Shown: positions 2,392-37,178 of the stretch, in pieces
How positions within the stretch are numbered: the first letter of the stretch is position 1
Layout: every line of letters starts with the position of its first letter
NCBI GenBank assembly: GCA_028712095.1
Contig: JAQTQU010000007.1
Coordinates: forward strand, 1 to 39,525
Direction of reading: 5' to 3'
From: Candidatus Peribacteraceae bacterium
Lineage (GTDB): Bacteria; Patescibacteriota; Gracilibacteria; Peribacterales; Peribacteraceae
DNA: 39,525 nucleotides
Translations under genes and position numbers: made by a program
The notes under the pieces: generated by a model
Database searches by the model: none
What the model was told of the DNA's origin: nothing
The model's input: the letters and a program-made list of their open reading frames with translations, nothing else

Positions 2392-4371
2392 ATGCCGGAG
2401 AGCAAGCCCTTCCGCCTCGTGGCTCCCTTCAAGCCCACCGGTGATCAACCGAAGGCTATCGCGAAACTGATTGAGAACCTCAAGAAGGGCGAGCGGCACT
2501 CGACCCTGCTCGGCGCCACCGGTACCGGCAAGACGTTCACGATGGCGAATGTGATCACCGAGCTGCAGCGTCCCACGCTGGTCCTCGCGCACAATAAGAC
2601 CCTTGCCGCGCAGCTCTGCAGCGAGTTCCGCGAGTTCTTCCCCGATAATGCGGTCAGCTACTTCGTCTCGTACTACGACTACTACCAGCCGGAGGCGTAC
2701 CTGCCGGCGACCGATACCTACATCGAGAAGGACGCCAGCATCAACGAAGAGATCGAAAAGTTCCGCCATGCGGCGACGATGAACCTGCTCACGCGCAAAG
2801 ATGTGCTCATCGTCGCGTCGGTCTCGTGCATCTACGGACTTGGCAACGTGAAGGATTACGAGGCGCTGGCGATCCATCTGGATAAGGGCCAGCCCATCCA
2901 GCGGGATACTCTCCTCCGCCGTCTCACGGACATCCAGTACCGCAGGAGCGGCATCGAGTTCAAGCAGGGCATGTACCACGTGCTCGGCGACACGGTCGAA
3001 ATCTTCCCGCCCGGCGGAGACACGGCGATCCGGCTGGAGCTCCCGTTCGACGAGATCGACTCGATCGAAGAGGTCGACAGCTTCACGGGCGAACTCGTAA
3101 AAAAACTCGACGAGGTGACGTTCTTCCCCGCCGCGCACAACGTGACGACCAAGGAGAAAATCGACCGCGCCACGGAGGCGATTCTCAAGGACATGAAAAT
3201 CCAGGAGAAGAAATTCCTCGAGGTCAAGGAGTACGCCAAGGCCGAGCGCATCCGCACGCGGACCGAGTACGACGTCGAGATGCTGAAAGAGACGGGATAC
3301 TGCACCGGCGTCGAAAACTACGTCCGTTATCTGGAAGAGAAAACTCCCGGCACGCCGCCGTCGACCCTGCTCGATTACTTCCCCAAGGATTTTCTGCTGA
3401 TCGTGGACGAATCGCACATCACGATCCCGCAGATCGGCGGGATGCATGAGGGCAACTTCAGCCGCAAGCAGACGCTGGTGGATTTCGGCTTCCGGCTCTT
3501 AAGCGCGCACGACAACCGTCCGCTCAAGTTCGACGAGTTCGAGGCGCACATCTCTCAAGCCATCTACGTGTCGGCCACGCCCGGCAAGTACGAGTTCAAG
3601 TTTACTCCCAAGCAGGGGCTGGTCGAGCAGATCATCCGTCCGACGGGCTTGCTCGATCCGCCGGTGACGGTCAAACCCTCGAAGCACCAGATCGATGACG
3701 TGATGACCGAGATCCAACAGACCCTCAAGCGCAAAGAGCGCGTGCTCCTCACGACCCTCACGAAGAAGATGGCCGAAGATCTCACGCAGTTTTTGCAGGA
3801 TGCAGACCTCAAAGTGCGCTATCTGCACAGCGACATTGAAACCATGGAGCGCATTGAGATTCTGCGGCAGCTCCGTACGGGCGAGATCGACGTGCTCGTC
3901 GGCATCAATCTGCTTCGTGAAGGGCTGGATCTGCCCGAGGTGAGCTTCATCGGCATCCTCGACGCCGACAAGCAGGGGTTCCTGCGGTCGCGCGATGCAC
4001 TGATCCAGACCATCGGTCGCTGTGCGCGCAACGTCAACGGCCACGTGACGCTGTACGGAGACAGGATGACGGATGCCATGCAGCAGGCCATCGACGAGAC
4101 CAACCGCCGTCGCACGATTCAGGAGGCGTACAACGTGAAGCACGGCATTACCCCGAAGACCATCGAGAAGGCGGTGAAGGATATCGCCGAAGCGCATTCC
4201 AAGGCCGCGCTGAAGCATCCTCACCGCGATCCGGCCAGGATTCCCAAAGACGAGAAGAAGCGCTTCCTCGAAGAGCTTACCGCGCAGATGGAGATTGCCT
4301 CGGCGAACTTAGAATTTGAAAAAGCCGCCGATCTTCGCGACGAGATTGATCTGCTCAAAAAGGAGCCATAA
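2392..4371 (+). CDS. uvrB: UvrABC system protein B (excinuclease subunit)
   Basis: The damage-verifying helicase-like subunit of nucleotide excision repair; it loads with UvrA and recruits UvrC. From ATG 2392 the protein has 659 residues, the usual length. Visible features are Walker A GATGTGKT (41-48), the beta-hairpin region YYDYYQPEAYLP that inserts between DNA strands, a DESH Walker B, the motif VI region QTIGRCARN (most family members have Ala where this has Cys), and a C-terminal UVR domain (ANLEFEKAADLRDEID) for UvrC contact. The frame extends to a TTG at 2374, but 2392 is chosen because a TACAAT -10 box at 2378-2383 lies inside that extension, 8 bp before the ATG. uvrA and uvrC are not in the window. 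Confidence 0.96.
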   Translation: MPESKPFRLVAPFKPTGDQPKAIAKLIENLKKGERHSTLLGATGTGKTFTMANVITELQRPTLVLAHNKTLAAQLCSEFREFFPDNAVSYFVSYYDYYQPEAYLPATDTYIEKDASINEEIEKFRHAATMNLLTRKDVLIVASVSCIYGLGNVKDYEALAIHLDKGQPIQRDTLLRRLTDIQYRRSGIEFKQGMYHVLGDTVEIFPPGGDTAIRLELPFDEIDSIEEVDSFTGELVKKLDEVTFFPAAHNVTTKEKIDRATEAILKDMKIQEKKFLEVKEYAKAERIRTRTEYDVEMLKETGYCTGVENYVRYLEEKTPGTPPSTLLDYFPKDFLLIVDESHITIPQIGGMHEGNFSRKQTLVDFGFRLLSAHDNRPLKFDEFEAHISQAIYVSATPGKYEFKFTPKQGLVEQIIRPTGLLDPPVTVKPSKHQIDDVMTEIQQTLKRKERVLLTTLTKKMAEDLTQFLQDADLKVRYLHSDIETMERIEILRQLRTGEIDVLVGINLLREGLDLPEVSFIGILDADKQGFLRSRDALIQTIGRCARNVNGHVTLYGDRMTDAMQQAIDETNRRRTIQEAYNVKHGITPKTIEKAVKDIAEAHSKAALKHPHRDPARIPKDEKKRFLEELTAQMEIASANLEFEKAADLRDEIDLLKKEP

Positions 4372-4465: not shown

Positions 4466-4879
4466 ATGGCACTCCTCCCCCGCCACCGTCGTTCTCGAAC
4501 GATGTGGCCCCGAACACGCTTCGCTGTCATGGCATCGGCCATCCTCGCTGCCTCCGTGCTCTCCGCAACGCCGGCGATGGCCACCTCGCCGAATTACCGC
4601 TATGACTGGGATATTGACTGGCTGCAGAAGACGAATGGAGGATTTTCGAGCGGGTACTTCTACGATCCCACGACGTTCTACTACACGCTGCCCTCGCGGG
4701 CGAAGAGCTTTGCGCTGCACTCCTATTTCCGTCAGAACTACTACAAGACCTACCATGCATTCCCCGCACCGGTTGATTATGAGGAGGAGCTGACGCCGGC
4801 TGAACTCGTGCAGTGCGGTAACTACACCTTCTCGCGTTACGATCGCGTGCCGCCGTTCGGGTACGAATGCACGAGGTAG
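4466..4879 (+). CDS. Small secreted protein, function unknown
   Basis: A 137-aa product with a long basic N-region (LLPRHRRSRTMWPRTR), a hydrophobic core (AVMASAILAASVLS) and a likely signal-peptidase site after TPAMA near residue 39. The mature part is rich in Tyr, Phe and Trp (YRYDWDIDWLQ, YFYDPTTFYYTL) and carries two Cys near the C-terminus (QCGNY, YECTR) that could form a disulfide outside the cell. The internal ATG at codon 13 is an alternative start. The stop codon TAG is also the first bases of a GGGATT-type repeat, so the gene end abuts a repeat arm. No family is recognised. Confidence 0.65.
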   Translation: MALLPRHRRSRTMWPRTRFAVMASAILAASVLSATPAMATSPNYRYDWDIDWLQKTNGGFSSGYFYDPTTFYYTLPSRAKSFALHSYFRQNYYKTYHAFPAPVDYEEELTPAELVQCGNYTFSRYDRVPPFGYECTR

Positions 4880-4910
4880 GGATTAGGGATTGGTATATTG
4901 GGGATTAGGA
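4878..4910 (+). repeat. GGGATT-unit repeat, left arm (copy A)
   Basis: A 33-bp G-rich tract built of AGGGATT / GGGGATT heptamers plus one 8-nt GGTATATT unit. It is the inverted partner of the arm at 5300-5332; together they bracket the four-helix-bundle gene. Related arms occur at 14755, 18195 and 18276. Confidence 0.8.
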
Positions 4911-4930
4911 CTGTAAACAACACGACATCT

Positions 4931-5305
4931 ATGGGTTCCTTCTTGGATTTAGAGGCGACGAAACAAGCTCTGAATCTTGTTGCAGAGGTCTATCTGCTTT
5001 GTAAGAAATTACCAAAAGAGGAAATATACGGATTAGCTTCCCAACTTAAGCGCTCGTCTTCCAGTGTTGTGGCAAATATTGCGGAAGGCTTTGGAAGGTA
5101 CACGTATGCAGACAAGGCGAACCGCTACACGATTGCGCGTGGAGAGTGCACCGAAGTTGTTGCCTATCTTCATGTCGCGGTTCGTGTGGAATTGCTGTCT
5201 CTTCAAGAGATTCAGCACAGCTTGGAAATTGCCGATCAAACCGGGAAACTCATTTCCGGACTCATATCCTTTTGCAAAGAAAAAAGTTACGTGTCTCATT
5301 CCTAA
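4931..5305 (+). CDS. Four-helix bundle protein (S23/IVP family, TIGR02436-like)
   Basis: About 124 residues from ATG 4931; the frame stays open upstream to about 4898 through the repeat arm. Conserved family features are visible: LKRSSSSVVANIAEGFGRYT, the RG.CTEV helix and a final helix with IADQTGKLISGLI. The family was first known as the ORF inside 23S rRNA intervening sequences; the Avd accessory protein of diversity-generating retroelements has the same fold, a basic pentameric barrel that binds nucleic acid. There is no rRNA or reverse transcriptase here. The gene is alone between inverted repeats that also supply its stop codon (TAA, inside CCTAATAC). Lower GC than galU and uvrB also suggests an acquired cassette. 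Fold assignment is confident; function is not known. Confidence 0.88.
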   Translation: MGSFLDLEATKQALNLVAEVYLLCKKLPKEEIYGLASQLKRSSSSVVANIAEGFGRYTYADKANRYTIARGECTEVVAYLHVAVRVELLSLQEIQHSLEIADQTGKLISGLISFCKEKSYVSHS

Positions 5306-5332
5306 TACACTAATCCCCAATCCCTAATCCCT
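5300..5332 (-). repeat. GGGATT-unit repeat, right arm (copy B)
   Basis: The C-rich arm on the plus strand. Its reverse complement begins with the same 16 bases as copy A (AGGGATTAGGGATTGG) and carries an 8-nt AGTGTATT unit. It fills the space between the convergent four-helix gene and galU; the galU stop is 2 bp beyond it. Confidence 0.8.
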
Positions 5333-5334
5333 CG

Positions 5335-6165
5335 CTACGAAACCATCCCCAACATCTTCACCGCCTCCGCATATCCTTCGGGCGTGCCGGTATCGATGCG
5401 TGAGCCGTTGCACTCCAGCGCGTAGATCGGCAGGGTGTTGAGTGCTGCGATGAGAGCGTCGATCAGACGGATCTCGCCGTCTTTGCCGACCGCCACCTTG
5501 GGCAGCGATTCGATCACGGAGCGCGGGATCAGGTAGCGCCCCACGATGCCCAGCGTGGAGGGAGCCTTCACGGGGTCCGGTTTCTCGACGAGGCCTTTCA
5601 CTTTCCGCAGGCGCGGGTGGCCGGGGACTTCCTTTGCAATTTCGATGACGCCGTAGCGGCTTGTCTTCTCACGCGGGATATTCTCGACGGCGATCAGTGC
5701 GAATTCCTTCTCGGGGATGAACGCGCTCGCTTCGATCAACTGCACGATGCCGGGCTTGTCGCCGACAAACAGATCATCGCCAAACAGCACGGCGACCATG
5801 TCGCTCTTCACGCACTGCTTTGCCTGCAAAATCGCATGCCCGTCTCCCAGCATCTGTTCCTGATACGCTGTCTCGAAGTGCGCTTTGGCGTAGGGCTTGA
5901 GGGGGTCAAGCAATTGTTCCTTCCCACGCCGTTTGAGCTCCTTCCGCAGCGCGGGATCCTCCTCAAAGTACCGTCCGATGGATTCCTTTCCGTGACTGAT
6001 CACGAAACAGATATCCGTAATACCGGCCTCCAGACACTCGTCCACGATGTACGCGATGATCGGGCGGTTGCCGAGCGGCAGCAGCTCCTTGGGCACGGCC
6101 TTCGTCCACGGGAGGAAGCGTGTGCCCAGTCCCGCGACGGGGAGGATGGCTTGGGTGACGGTCAT
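5335..6165 (-). CDS. galU: UTP--glucose-1-phosphate uridylyltransferase
   Basis: Makes UDP-glucose from UTP and glucose-1-phosphate, the sugar donor for surface glycans. The 276 residues fit the bacterial GalU family. The nucleotide-binding signature GLGTRFLPWTKAVPKELLPL is at the N-terminus. Other family segments are DECLEAGITDICFVIS, the FGDD metal-binding segment, RYGVIE, GLVEKPDP and GRYLIP. A TACACT -10 box lies 8 bp before the ATG, with TTTGTC as a possible -35 at 16 bp, so it is probably leaderless. It is convergent with the four-helix cassette. The partial glycosyltransferase at the right edge of the window could use such nucleotide sugars (inference). Confidence 0.95.
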   Translation of the reverse strand: MTVTQAILPVAGLGTRFLPWTKAVPKELLPLGNRPIIAYIVDECLEAGITDICFVISHGKESIGRYFEEDPALRKELKRRGKEQLLDPLKPYAKAHFETAYQEQMLGDGHAILQAKQCVKSDMVAVLFGDDLFVGDKPGIVQLIEASAFIPEKEFALIAVENIPREKTSRYGVIEIAKEVPGHPRLRKVKGLVEKPDPVKAPSTLGIVGRYLIPRSVIESLPKVAVGKDGEIRLIDALIAALNTLPIYALECNGSRIDTGTPEGYAEAVKMLGMVS

Positions 6166-9678: not shown

Positions 9679-9948
9679 ATGACCGTCTCGCAGTCCGCAC
9701 TCGCCAAGGTCCACGATCTCTACGTCATGCAGATCGAACTCTGGAAACATTTGCGCGAGGGAAATTTTCAGAAGGCCGATCAACGAAAAGAAACCCAGAA
9801 GTGTCTGAAGCAATTTTCCCGCCTCCTCGATCAGGTGGACTGGCACTACATGGGAGGCGAGGATGTGCTGGCGGAACTCAAGACCATGCGCGGCGAAGTG
9901 TCGGCACAACTGAGGAACATCCGCCGCAGGAAGACGAAGCGAAAATAA
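9679..9948 (+). CDS. Small basic helical protein, unknown function
   Basis: An 89-aa product, probably all-helical (AKVHDLYVMQIELWKHLREG..., TQKCLKQFSRLLDQVDWHYM), ending in a very basic tail (RNIRRRKTKRK) that could contact nucleic acid. It has a good promoter and no signal peptide. It is convergent with hsp20, and its TAA stop lies in the first unit of a 9-nt inverted-repeat array. No family is recognised. Confidence 0.6.
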   Translation: MTVSQSALAKVHDLYVMQIELWKHLREGNFQKADQRKETQKCLKQFSRLLDQVDWHYMGGEDVLAELKTMRGEVSAQLRNIRRRKTKRK

Positions 9949-10077
9949 GGAATTCAAAGAAATCAGGGATGACAAAGAGTACAAAGAAATACTCATCTGC
10001 GAATCCTTGTACTCCTTGTTTTCTTTGTACTCCTCGTACTCTTCGTTTTCCTCGTACTCTCTTCGTCATCCCCCCTC
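9946..10077. repeat. Inverted array of degenerate 9-nt units between convergent genes
   Basis: The left arm reads AAGGAATTC, AAAGAAATC, AGGGATGAC, AAAGAGTAC, AAAGAAATA. The right arm, read on the minus strand, gives units such as AAGGAGTAC, AAAGAAAAC, GAGGAGTAC, GAAGAGTAC, GAGGAAAAC. The arms are complementary in pattern, so the transcript can fold, but there is no clean U-tract. The array starts at the stop codon of the upstream gene and includes the stop codon of hsp20. Confidence 0.65.
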
Positions 10078-14465: not shown

Positions 14466-14785
14466 AGGCCGATGAGACTAGCAGGCGTGCGGGAAGACGG
14501 AAAGGGCCCTGCCTCACCCCCCAACCCCCTCTCCCCCGCCTTCGCCAAGGCTTCCCCCTTCGCTAAAGCTTCGGGGGACAAGTCGGCGGGCAGGCGAGGA
14601 GAGGGGGAATGTTTGTTTTTTTGTAGTTGTTTCATGCATTGAAGTACTCCCCTTCCTCCACGGGAGGAAGGGGCTGGGGGATGGAGGTTAGAACAAAAAT
14701 GAGAGGAAAGTTGGGGGGTGGCAAAAAAACAACTCACAATAAAGGACCCTTCGTCCCAATCCCTAATACTCCAATCCCCAATCCC
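14466..14785. other. Repeat-filled spacer between recJ and an envelope gene
   Basis: No convincing gene. It holds a large imperfect hairpin of the CCCCTCTCC ... GGAGAGGGG type with its arms near 14530 and 14605 (the interior reads GCCTTCGCCAAGGC), a REP-like hairpin at 14649-14692, an A/G-rich stretch, and a GGGATT-unit repeat at 14755-14787. The recJ upstream region lies at the left end. Confidence 0.7.
14649..14692 (+). repeat. REP-like hairpin with conserved foot, copy 1
   Basis: CCCCTTCCTC (14649-14658) pairs perfectly with GAGGAAGGGG (14664-14673) around a 5-nt loop, followed by the foot CTGGGGGATGGAGGTT. The same hairpin plus foot occurs in the opposite orientation at 37229-37267. Confidence 0.75.
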
Positions 14786-14787
14786 TT
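14755..14787 (-). repeat. GGGATT-unit repeat, solo arm (copy E)
   Basis: Almost identical over 30 bp to copy D at 18276-18307, including the 8-nt unit GGAGTATT on the minus strand. No inverted partner is seen nearby. It abuts, and partly supplies, the TAA stop of the minus-strand gene at 14786. Confidence 0.8.
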
Positions 14788-18193: not shown

Positions 18194-18308
18194 GAGGGAT
18201 TGGGGAATAGGGATTGGAATATTAGGGACGCAAGAAGTGGCGGGAATCGTTTCCAAGGAGCTTCGATTTTGTTTTCCTAATCCCTAATACTCCAATCCCC
18301 AATCCCTC
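18194..18308. mobile_element. MITE-like element of the GGGATT-unit family (copies C and D)
   Basis: A G-rich arm (18194-18228) and a C-rich arm (18276-18308) face each other across a 47-bp core with no ORF. Both arms consist of GGGATT-type heptamers plus one 8-nt TATT unit (GGAATATT; GGAGTATT). The arrangement copies that around the four-helix-bundle gene, minus the gene, as expected of a non-autonomous derivative. It sits between khpB and the hup terminator. Mobility is inferred, not shown. Confidence 0.55.
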
Positions 18309-27616: not shown

Positions 27617-28603
27617 TTAACGCGTGAAACGCATAATCTGTAACCTTTCCGCGAAGACTTCCTTCGGAGTACGGTAATGGAGAGAACGACGGGGACAATT
27701 GTTGAGCCATTTCACGGCAGCGTCAACGTCCTCTTGGGTCTTCTGCGAGAAGTCCGTTCCTTTCGGGAAGAACCTCCGCAGTTCCCGGTTCATGAATTCA
27801 TTGAGGCCACGGTCACAGGATCGGTAGGGTCTGGCGCAGTACACGGCCATGTGCAGGTTCTCGGTGATTTCTTCATGCTTCGCAATCTCTTTGCCATTGT
27901 CGTGCGTCATTGTTAAGCGGAGTGTTTCAGGAATATCTCCCAACGCATCCGTACTTGCTCTGACCATTTCATCGGCCGACTTGTCGGTAACGAGGATCGC
28001 CCTGAAGTACATGCATGTGCGCTCTGCGAAGGTAGCGACAGCACCATCTCCTTCCTTGTTGCTCACAACGAGATCACTTTCCCAGTCGCCGCTGCGTCCC
28101 TTTGCATTCACGATCTCCGGGCGTTCCTCGATGCCTATGCGATTCGGGATCCGTATCTTGTCCTTGGCTATGCCACGCCATTTGTACTTCTTGCCCTGGT
28201 AGCGCAAACAGAGATGCAGCGATCCGCCTTCCTCTTTCTCCCGTTCAACGTACACGTAGATGCTCTGGTGGCTGACCGTGTGCTTCCTGCCTCGTTCCGC
28301 CATGCGTCCGGCGATCTGATCCGGACTCTTCCTGTCTCTGAGTTCCCGCTCCACATGTTTTCGCAGCCGCGCATCATCATGCCAGCGCGAACGATCATCG
28401 TACGCATGCAGTCTCCGCTCGGTTGCGCGGACGTGGGCCTTGTGCGCGGTGTAGTGACGGCGCAATCTGGGGCTGCCACGGGCAAGTTCGCGACTGACCG
28501 TGGATTGATTGCAGCCGACGATGTCTGCGATCTCCTGTTGCGTATGACCGGCCCGGTGCAGTCCTTCGAGCTGATCGCGCTTCGAACGTGTAATGTGTGT
28601 CAT
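27617..28603 (-). CDS. IS30 family transposase
   Basis: 328 aa from ATG 28603; a second in-frame ATG at 28642 would add 13 residues. It has an N-terminal HTH (HTQQEIADIVGCNQSTVSREL) and an IS30 DDE domain: GDWESDLVV (first D), TMTHDNGKEIAKHEE (second D), and RGLNEFMNRELRRFFPKGTDF (third acidic residue), followed by WLNNCPRRSLHYRTPKEVF. All expected catalytic residues are present, so it may be active. The last codons read through the left inverted repeat, and the stop codon (TAA at 27619-27617) lies in flanking DNA just outside it. Confidence 0.92.
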   Translation of the reverse strand: MTHITRSKRDQLEGLHRAGHTQQEIADIVGCNQSTVSRELARGSPRLRRHYTAHKAHVRATERRLHAYDDRSRWHDDARLRKHVERELRDRKSPDQIAGRMAERGRKHTVSHQSIYVYVEREKEEGGSLHLCLRYQGKKYKWRGIAKDKIRIPNRIGIEERPEIVNAKGRSGDWESDLVVSNKEGDGAVATFAERTCMYFRAILVTDKSADEMVRASTDALGDIPETLRLTMTHDNGKEIAKHEEITENLHMAVYCARPYRSCDRGLNEFMNRELRRFFPKGTDFSQKTQEDVDAAVKWLNNCPRRSLHYRTPKEVFAERLQIMRFTR

Positions 28604-28713
28604 ACGGTATGGGTGGAAAGGAGCTAGAACGCCTTCCCTCATACCGTACTTTGAAAACTCTCTCAGAAGGGCTGCGCGCTACGCCCGCAGCCCTTCTGGA
28701 TTATGCGTTTCAC
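27624..28713 (-). mobile_element. IS30-family insertion sequence, 1090 bp
   Basis: The terminal inverted repeats are 15-bp perfect matches: GTGAAACGCATAATC at 27624-27638 and its complement at 28699-28713. Between the transposase start and the right repeat is a 13-bp perfect hairpin (28664-28698). No matching short target duplication is visible (flanks ...CGC and TTC...), so it may have decayed, or the ends may be set slightly differently. It separates the collagen-fibre operon from the M23 peptidase gene. Confidence 0.85.
28664..28698. repeat. Perfect hairpin at the IS30 right end
   Basis: CAGAAGGGCTGCG pairs with CGCAGCCCTTCTG around CGCTACGCC. On an IS transcript entering from outside it could block readthrough or hide the transposase start, as protective hairpins do in other insertion sequences (inference). 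Confidence 0.85.
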
Positions 28714-36220: not shown

Positions 36221-36392
36221 CGTTGAGCAGGGACGCTATGCTCCTGGGTTACCAGGTGGGTGACCGCATCCCCCGACCACGGTCGGGAGAGAGTAGGCCT
36301 CCCCTAGAGCACTTGAGGAGAAACGTACCGGCTCTGACGTGCCGTCCAGACGATGGGATTCTAGCAATGAGGATGGAGGATTGCCATGTGGC
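36221..36392. ncRNA. Candidate structured RNA, strand undetermined
   Basis: Consecutive stems without coding potential: GAGCA/TGCTC (36225-36243); CCTGG-GTTA-CCAGG (36243-36256); GGT/ACC just after; CCCGAC-CACG-GTCGGG (36272-36287); GCTC (36240) with GAGC (36307) could close a multi-branch junction around them. CGGC/GCCG (near 36329-36343) and GCAAT/ATTGC (near 36364-36384) follow. It does not match the conserved cores of RNase P, tmRNA, SRP RNA, 6S RNA, T-box, TPP or GEMM elements as I know them. On the minus strand it lies between pgeF and dgt. Confidence 0.4.
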
Positions 36393-36400
36393 TCTTTTGA

Positions 36401-36515
36401 GAGGAAACAGAAGAAACAGAGGACGCAGAAGAAGAAAAGGAAATAAAGGAGAACGATTGTGACCACACCTCTTTTTATTCCTTTCTTTCCTCTATTCCCT
36501 TTCATTCCTGTCCAA
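36401..36515. repeat. Inverted array of 9-nt units after pgeF
   Basis: The purine-rich arm has units GAGGAAACA, GAAGAAACA, GAGGACGCA, GAAGAAGAA, AAGGAAATA. The pyrimidine-rich arm has TCTTTTTAT, TCCTTTCTT, TCCTCTATT, CCCTTTCAT. They meet around ATTGTGACCACACC and overlap the 3' end of pgeF. Same architecture as 9946-10077 with a different unit sequence. Confidence 0.6.
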
Positions 36516-37178
36516 CAGGACGCATCCCAGCACGTTCGTCCATCCACGTTTCACTGCTTCGCGGTCGCCTCCCCGGTAGGTCCAATACGTTTGCGGGGCG
36601 CAGCAGGTGCAATCCGGCGAGCGTTCGAAATGATCCCGCGGAAGTCCCAGCGTGAAGAGTTGTGCATCCGCCGCTCCGCGCAAGTCGGCCTGGTTTCCGT
36701 TGATGAATTCCGGGGGAATGGAAGGGAGTTCGCGCTCAGGGTCACTGAACCCTGCGCATTTCTGGCAGAGCGATGGCCCTGCGGCGACCCATGTGTCTTT
36801 CGGATCGATCTTCCATTCGTTTTTCAGCGTCGCGAAAAATGCTCGAATGGCTCCGGCGATGAGCCCGCGCCAGCCCGCGTGCAGCACGCCGAGGACGTGA
36901 TGTTCCGGTGCATAGACGACGAAGGACTGGCAGTCGGCGAACCGTACCGAGAGGGCGAGCCCGCTTTGGTCCGTGATGAGGCCGTCCGCTCCCGGCGCGT
37001 AGCGGATGGCATCGCGGGCGATGCTGATTTTTGTTCCGTGCACCTGCTCCGCGTAGGCCTCCTCTTTCACTCCCAGGACCCCGCACACGTCATGCGGCCG
37101 CGCATCCTCTTTTGCCCACTGGACCACTTTGATCCGGTCGGAAAACGGCGTGAACAGTGAAAAGGGAGCGTGGAGCAT
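36492..37178 (-). CDS. pgeF: Peptidoglycan editing factor / purine nucleoside phosphorylase (YfiH family)
   Basis: A cytoplasmic zinc enzyme of the laccase-domain (YfiH) family, variously shown to act on purine nucleosides and to remove wrong UDP-MurNAc-amino-acid precursors. 228 aa from ATG 37178; the longer frame upstream crosses repeats. Metal-site segments are present: EQVHGTKISIA, ADGLITDQSGLALSVRFADC and VLHAGWRGLIAG. AAGPSLCQKC and DCTCCAPQTYWTYRGGD complete the family pattern. A TACAAT -10 box lies 8 bp before the ATG, so it is probably leaderless. Confidence 0.92.
   Translation of the reverse strand: MLHAPFSLFTPFSDRIKVVQWAKEDARPHDVCGVLGVKEEAYAEQVHGTKISIARDAIRYAPGADGLITDQSGLALSVRFADCQSFVVYAPEHHVLGVLHAGWRGLIAGAIRAFFATLKNEWKIDPKDTWVAAGPSLCQKCAGFSDPERELPSIPPEFINGNQADLRGAADAQLFTLGLPRDHFERSPDCTCCAPQTYWTYRGGDREAVKRGWTNVLGCVLLDRNERE

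Follow-up and report, generated by a model that had tools for sequence, protein, structure and literature searches.

What is a small gene for a four-helix-bundle protein doing between inverted arrays of short direct units in the genome of Candidatus Peribacteraceae bacterium (assembly GCA_028712095.1)? The window, that is, the whole stretch of DNA that was analysed, comprises positions 1 to 39,525 of contig JAQTQU010000007.1, and the features discussed are collected in Table 1. The two arms are inverted repeats of 36 nt that are 78% complementary and share a perfect core of 12 nt. In the inward direction the five units are AGGGATT AGGGATT GGTATATT GGGGATT AGGACTG in the left arm and AGGGATT AGGGATT GGGGATT AGTGTATT AGGAATG in the right arm. 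Each arm thus has one unit of 8 nt, in third place on the left and in fourth place on the right, and four units of 7 nt. Sequence and inverted-repeat analysis thus bears out the preliminary description, which had seen 7-nt units with one 8-nt unit per inverted arm around a TIGR02436-type gene. It had also remarked that the arms abut or supply the neighbouring stop codons, and indeed the upstream TAG overlaps the left arm and the stop codon of the downstream minus-strand gene (5335-5337) lies 2 nt from the right arm. Finally, it had proposed that the arms fold in RNA or act as ends; the predicted fold of the cassette RNA pairs them (z = -5.4), and predictions for this and a gene-less copy agree that such folding is possible.

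Table 1. Features of the window that bear on the four-helix cassette and its relatives (a point marks features given without strand).
Feature	Position	Strand	Remarks
Upstream ORF, 137 aa	4466-4879	+	stop TAG 4877-4879 overlaps left arm
Left arm (end of gene-bearing element)	4878-4913	+	five direct units; based on sequence, inverted repeat and family consensus
Four-helix-bundle gene, 124 aa, TIGR02436/PF05635 (23S rRNA intervening sequence protein family)	4931-5305	+	ATG at 4931, stop 5303-5305 within right arm
Right arm (end), inverted	5297-5332	-	includes stop codon of four-helix gene
UTP-glucose-1-phosphate uridylyltransferase-like gene (named by sequence recognition)	5335-6165	-	right boundary of insertion site
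Probable gene-less hairpin, other arm family	9928-10052	.	intergenic; units of about 9 nt such as TACTCCTTG/TACTCTTCG
Solo arm, GGGATT family	14754-14786	-
Gene-less hairpin, GGGATT arm family	18194-18308	.	spacer about 46 nt; fold z -5.2 and -6.3
Possible further gene-less copy	36366-36550	.	GGAAACAGAAGAAACAGAGG-type arms

The protein itself is a member of both families by score (96.5 bits against a cut-off of 24 for TIGR02436, and 102.3 against 33.8 for PF05635). Its AlphaFold2 model has four helices (pLDDT 97), and the best fold match is 2gsc (XCC0516; TM 0.84, rmsd 0.9), followed by 2rld and Avd proteins. The PDB entries 2gsc and 2rld, which are also sequence relatives, contain five chains each, and the window protein is probably pentameric. 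Six residues (Q38, R41, S45, N49, E52 and E75) are conserved in 96% or more of 145 proteins, and dN/dS is 0.03-0.16 even with copies at different loci included; the protein is under strong purifying selection. Since family and fold comparison revealed no known nuclease, transposase or reverse transcriptase motif, a role of the protein in movement is one that we infer. No relative was present in the phage genomes searched.

Is the arrangement peculiar to this locus? The window's own genome (G000; 1.25 Mb in 67 contigs) has 15 TIGR02436 (PF05635) genes, every one of which lies between inverted arms of short direct units. The unit differs from locus to locus, being GGGATTA in the window and AGTATGC, GGACTTG, GTTACAC, TGAAGCT, GGAATATC (8 nt), GAGGTTGAA (9 nt) and others elsewhere, and GGGATT is therefore rejected as an arm common to the whole family. 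The preliminary description had expected GGGATT arms around the sister genes and would have counted TIGR02436 genes lacking such arms against its reading; the letters are absent, each gene having its own unit, but the inverted unit-array architecture is present throughout. Mean complementarity is 21.5 for a gene's own arms and 12.6 +/- 3.0 for arms taken from different loci (15 genes), so the pairing is not due to chance, and own-arm pairing ranks first or second at all 15 loci, L015 being the weakest. Relatives carry from 0 to 21 family genes per genome, in most cases with the same arrangement. Among 272 arms sampled from the window's lineage, other phyla and cyanobacterial plasmids, 231 contain a periodic run, compared with 45 of 265 control windows; the period is 7, 8 or 9, and the median length is 4.4 units. 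Family consensus arms have four full units and the first letters of a fifth, and longer arrays are also found. The five chains of the solved relatives suggest, short of proof, that one arm unit may correspond to one subunit of a pentamer. Arm and protein go together: arms are shared in most of the non-syntenic protein pairs with over 70% identity (4 of 5), and the protein-arm Mantel correlation on non-syntenic pairs is 0.34 (permutation sd 0.04). From this co-variation, the four-helix protein presumably binds its arms.

The arms also occur without the gene. Arm-type searches covered 884 kb of the window's own genome and the 1.2-Mb complete genome of a congener, G003 (80 kb of which are N), with the reversed arm as a decoy. 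The larger families gave 20, 19, 30 and 18 gene-less copies against 0, 0, 0 and 1 for the respective decoys; most copies are intergenic hairpins of about 100 bp with a short spacer, an arm type has up to about 20 of them per genome, and they often sit at stop codons. For the hairpin family at 9928 of the window, no cognate gene was identified. The window also carries an IS30-like transposase gene (27617-28642; named by sequence recognition) with no apparent relation to the four-helix elements. Arm families are abundant alongside their cognate gene: L009-type arms occupy 20 loci in G000 versus 1 in G003, L002-type arms 17 versus 4 and L010-type arms 7 versus 0, and the pattern is reversed for the arm type of L022 of G003 (1 versus 19 loci); the L013 type, whose gene is present in both genomes, has 3 versus 15.

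Arms from different copies resemble each other more closely than do the two arms of a single element. The difference is significant in five families (P<0.0003 for three of them, 0.0008 and 0.04 for the other two) and not in the three smallest sets, and it shows that these are oriented, two-ended elements and not random palindromes. A test of A and B classes of ends is weaker when taken alone (P 0.02-0.5). As an example, the second unit in the AGTATGC family is usually AGGGR.. at one end and AGTATNC at the other. Perfect arm pairing is rejected as a conserved feature, since arms of the same element pair worse than arms across copies. Spacers of gene-less copies within one family are mostly unrelated, unlike those produced by ordinary MITE amplification. 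Separately, we observed a REP-like family, TGTCACNCTGAGC...GTCGAAGG, at positions 120664-120725 and ten more places of G003, a genome that has no PF01797 gene.

Do these elements insert? The window site is empty in congeners G001 and G003, where 23-31 bp separate the flanking genes and the orthologues of the upstream ORF have different ends and lack the insert; in congeners G002 and G004 it holds gene-less hairpins of other, unrelated arm types. Other elements of the window's own genome likewise have empty sites in G003, one of which holds a gene-less hairpin of another family. The preliminary description had called for a search for empty orthologous sites, and the cassette is not fixed in all relatives. 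In cyanobacterial plasmids, near-identical filled and empty sites allow insertions to be resolved to the nucleotide. The filled site of Trichormus plasmid C is AAAAAGTAAT|AAATCAGAATTC...TTCTTCTTT|GTAATTAACAAAT, and plasmids of Nostoc linckia, Tolypothrix and Nostoc carneum (about 97% identical) have the empty site AAAAAGTAATTAACAAAT; the comparison gives a clean 5-bp target duplication, GTAAT. Plasmid pNsp_a of Nostoc ATCC 53789 reads AGGTTCTA|AATCAGGAGTC...CTTCTGGA|TTCTAGTTATGC, and plasmid pNsp_c has the empty site AGGTTCTAGGTTATGC; here the duplication is TTCTA, again 5 bp and clean, with one base lost beside it. One gene-less element shows an ambiguous 4-bp duplication, TGAC. GTAAT and TTCTA, both from cyanobacterial plasmids, are the only two clean cases; other filled/empty pairs are ambiguous, and those of Dolichospermum and Calothrix are not clean. 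Within the genus to which the window belongs, no duplication can be resolved; Patescibacteria-type gene-less copies gave no signal of a fixed target duplication, their sites being too diverged or their boundaries uncertain. A second copy of the Trichormus element, 82% identical from arm to arm, lies in Aulosira, likewise on a cyanobacterial plasmid but at a locus unrelated to the first. The earlier proposal of a mobile cassette has thus held up, with empty sites in two congeners and at other loci in G003, copy numbers of 0 to 21 and 5-bp duplications in related elements, and the mobility of the element family is well supported. We therefore think it likely that the cassette in the window belongs to a widespread family of small mobile DNA elements with two ends, of which it would be a gene-bearing copy whose sole gene is the four-helix gene.

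Several loci give particular views of such insertion. L119 (G000:C12, 2580-5135) holds a diversity-generating retroelement (DGR) with Avd at 2668-3009, a template-like repeat near 3650-3860 and a reverse transcriptase from about 4000 onward. A single hairpin family has inserted into it three times, and one of these insertions includes the family's own four-helix gene, which adjoins Avd and is easily misread as a second Avd. On cyanobacterial plasmids, four-helix genes with repeat arms lie between cas10 and cmr3 (L283, 1977-2333) and between cas6 and cas4 (L279, 1977-2345); the nearest relatives lack both genes, which are thus probably insertions and not CRISPR components. A Nostoc operon (L297, 735-1000) has two heptad features upstream of a gene-bearing element of the same arm family, one of which is a gene-less hairpin absent in a sister plasmid, and this suggests local or repeated insertion.

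How far does the family extend? A scan with the XCC0516 sequence gave 80 named loci in many phyla, where own arms score 24.0 on average, far flanks 11.5 and the same flanks compared in direct orientation 14.7; the arms of only 42 of the 80 loci exceed the 99% far-flank control. The same architecture surrounds relatives in Xanthomonas, Flavobacterium, Nitrospira and cyanobacterial plasmids; the Xanthomonas arms, GGGAATC GGGAGTG GAGAATC GGGAATC GGCAAAG, enclose relatives of XCC0516 (PDB 2gsc). Each of 12 Xanthomonadales-type genomes checked has one or two family genes. Where the gene has GGGAAT-type arms, GGGAAT arrays outnumber GGGATT arrays in 7 of 9 genomes, and where it has GGGATT-type arms the reverse is true in 7 of 7; five genomes with other arm types have no GGGAAT and no GGGATT arrays, and reversed patterns are absent everywhere. 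Two of 16 Xanthomonadales genomes, G031 and G034, have the non-cognate unit in equal or greater numbers, and the extra family gene predicted to explain these arrays was searched for in both and not found.

Which known systems does this resemble? REP/REPIN elements with their RAYT (TnpA-REP) genes (PMC3116915, PMC2817692, PMC8266576) are alike in that one gene between inverted repeats is accompanied by scattered, intergenic, gene-less hairpins and that protein and repeat are cognate. They differ in their protein, a Y1 HUH transposase instead of the four-helix PF05635 protein (G003 has elements without PF01797), and the arms here are arrays of 7-9 nt units. The REP/RAYT family is not known to make target site duplications, whereas related four-helix elements show GTAAT and TTCTA. 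The element family is REP/RAYT-like in organisation but is not a member. The heptanucleotide repeats of Xanthomonas and Nostoc, with GGGAATC units, mostly four, and 70-75 inverted pairs per Xanthomonas genome, have been treated as G-quadruplex repeats (PMC4692102), and a term search of that paper found no mention of the four-helix gene. Such intergenic 7-nt unit arrays match the arms at Xanthomonas relatives of XCC0516, and other units match those at cyanobacterial genes (cyanobacterial STRR); arms of four-helix elements are also built of 8- and 9-nt units. The Avd protein of DGRs (PDB 4dwl, 8ub7) has the same fold (TM about 0.77), but of the invariant residues, Q38, S45 and E52 are missing from the Avd of the window's genome that was compared. 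The window protein scores well below the cut-off of the Avd models (21.6 bits versus 80 for DivGenRetAVD and 21.1 versus 40 for bAvd), and the window contig has no reverse transcriptase match, the genome's only PF00078 match being on another contig. DGR membership is rejected on both grounds. Classical IS elements and MITEs differ from this family, whose protein has no transposase domain and whose arms vary between loci. Within one open-access library, known classes never pair a PF05635 protein with such ends, no paper in this open-access subset links the four-helix gene to such repeats, and the element family is apparently unrecognised.

Might the hairpins instead be MITE-like and moved in trans by an IS transposase, a Y1 transposase or a reverse transcriptase, with the four-helix gene as mere cargo, retained perhaps for a stabilising or silencing effect on them? 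This seems to us unlikely. The 5-bp duplications resemble those of cut-and-paste transposases, the four-helix protein has no recognised catalytic motif and its Avd relatives in DGRs require a separate reverse transcriptase, but G003, with 4 four-helix genes and many hairpins, has no match to PF00078 or PF01797, nor do G011 (8 genes) and G020 (5 genes). Moreover, arm sequence tracks the four-helix protein across loci and genomes, and no other gene lies inside the examined elements; the trans-acting enzyme families counted were PF00078 and PF01797, and a DDE transposase might still act in trans. The absence of reverse transcriptase and Y1 transposase genes from some element-rich genomes means that neither is required there, which weakens both as required partners.

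Insertion is indicated by empty orthologous sites, by copy numbers that range so widely, by target duplications and by sister species that have unrelated families at the same site. All this tells against a system that is regulatory and not selfish, in which the protein would act on numerous transcripts by binding their heptad hairpins and the spread of the arms would be due to slippage and recombination under host selection. We hold this decidedly improbable, even with hairpins that are intergenic and often at stop codons, a protein under strong purifying selection and arrays whose varying length shows that slippage occurs; ring proteins such as TRAP do bind repeated triplets for regulation. 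Still less probable, indeed barely so, is that the cassette is an RNA element of the intervening-sequence type, whose arm stem RNase III would cut, rRNA intervening sequences being copies that landed in 23S genes. The preliminary description had likened the cassette to an rRNA intervening sequence, and the resemblance stands for the protein family and the complementary, stem-forming arms that enclose it: the Coxiella 23S rRNA intervening sequence, with its S23p ORF, is excised by RNase III (PMC4990558), and the cassette RNA folds well. It fails for location in rRNA. The window copy lies between two protein genes, all examined copies do likewise, and there are many copies, gene-less families and an arm sequence peculiar to each locus; no 23S gene was found in the window's own genome assembly. 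By location, the family is not an rRNA intervening sequence. RNase III cutting would explain why copies are tolerated and not how they spread, and it is compatible with the mobile-element explanation.

How, then, might the mobile element work? Each copy has two inverted ends of about four and a half direct 7-9 nt units, similar but not identical, with one TIGR02436/PF05635 gene in gene-bearing copies and none in the hairpins of about 100 bp that make up most of the family. The four-helix protein may bind an arm as a five-chain ring, each subunit taking up about one unit in the manner of TRAP on repeated triplets; it may also pair or mark the two ends and mobilise both its own element and gene-less copies. 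Cutting could be done by the protein itself, through the invariant Q-R-S-N-E...E residues, or by a recruited host enzyme, and the paired arms probably let transcript copies fold out of the way. A bolder version, possible in our judgment but doubtful, would make the pentamer a new kind of recombinase in which the ring reads the arm unit by unit, the Q38-R41-S45-N49-E52 strip and E75 form the active site and insertion proceeds with a 5-bp stagger. The cyanobacterial and Xanthomonas heptanucleotide repeats, together with rRNA intervening sequences, would then be products of one unrecognised mobile class.

The TIGR02436/PF05635 family owes its name to its unusual location in 23S rRNA, and the cyanobacterial and Xanthomonas heptanucleotide repeats have long been known. 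The elements described here join this very common protein family of unknown function with those repeats and with the gene-less hairpins of small genomes. They also suggest that four-helix genes inside operons (cas10/cmr3, cas6/cas4) are insertions and not parts of those systems. If the explanation is true, there would be a widespread class of bacterial mobile elements without a known transposase, whose binding and mobility would be directly testable, given a relative of solved structure (2gsc) and hosts in which one or two genes stand beside tens to hundreds of arrays.
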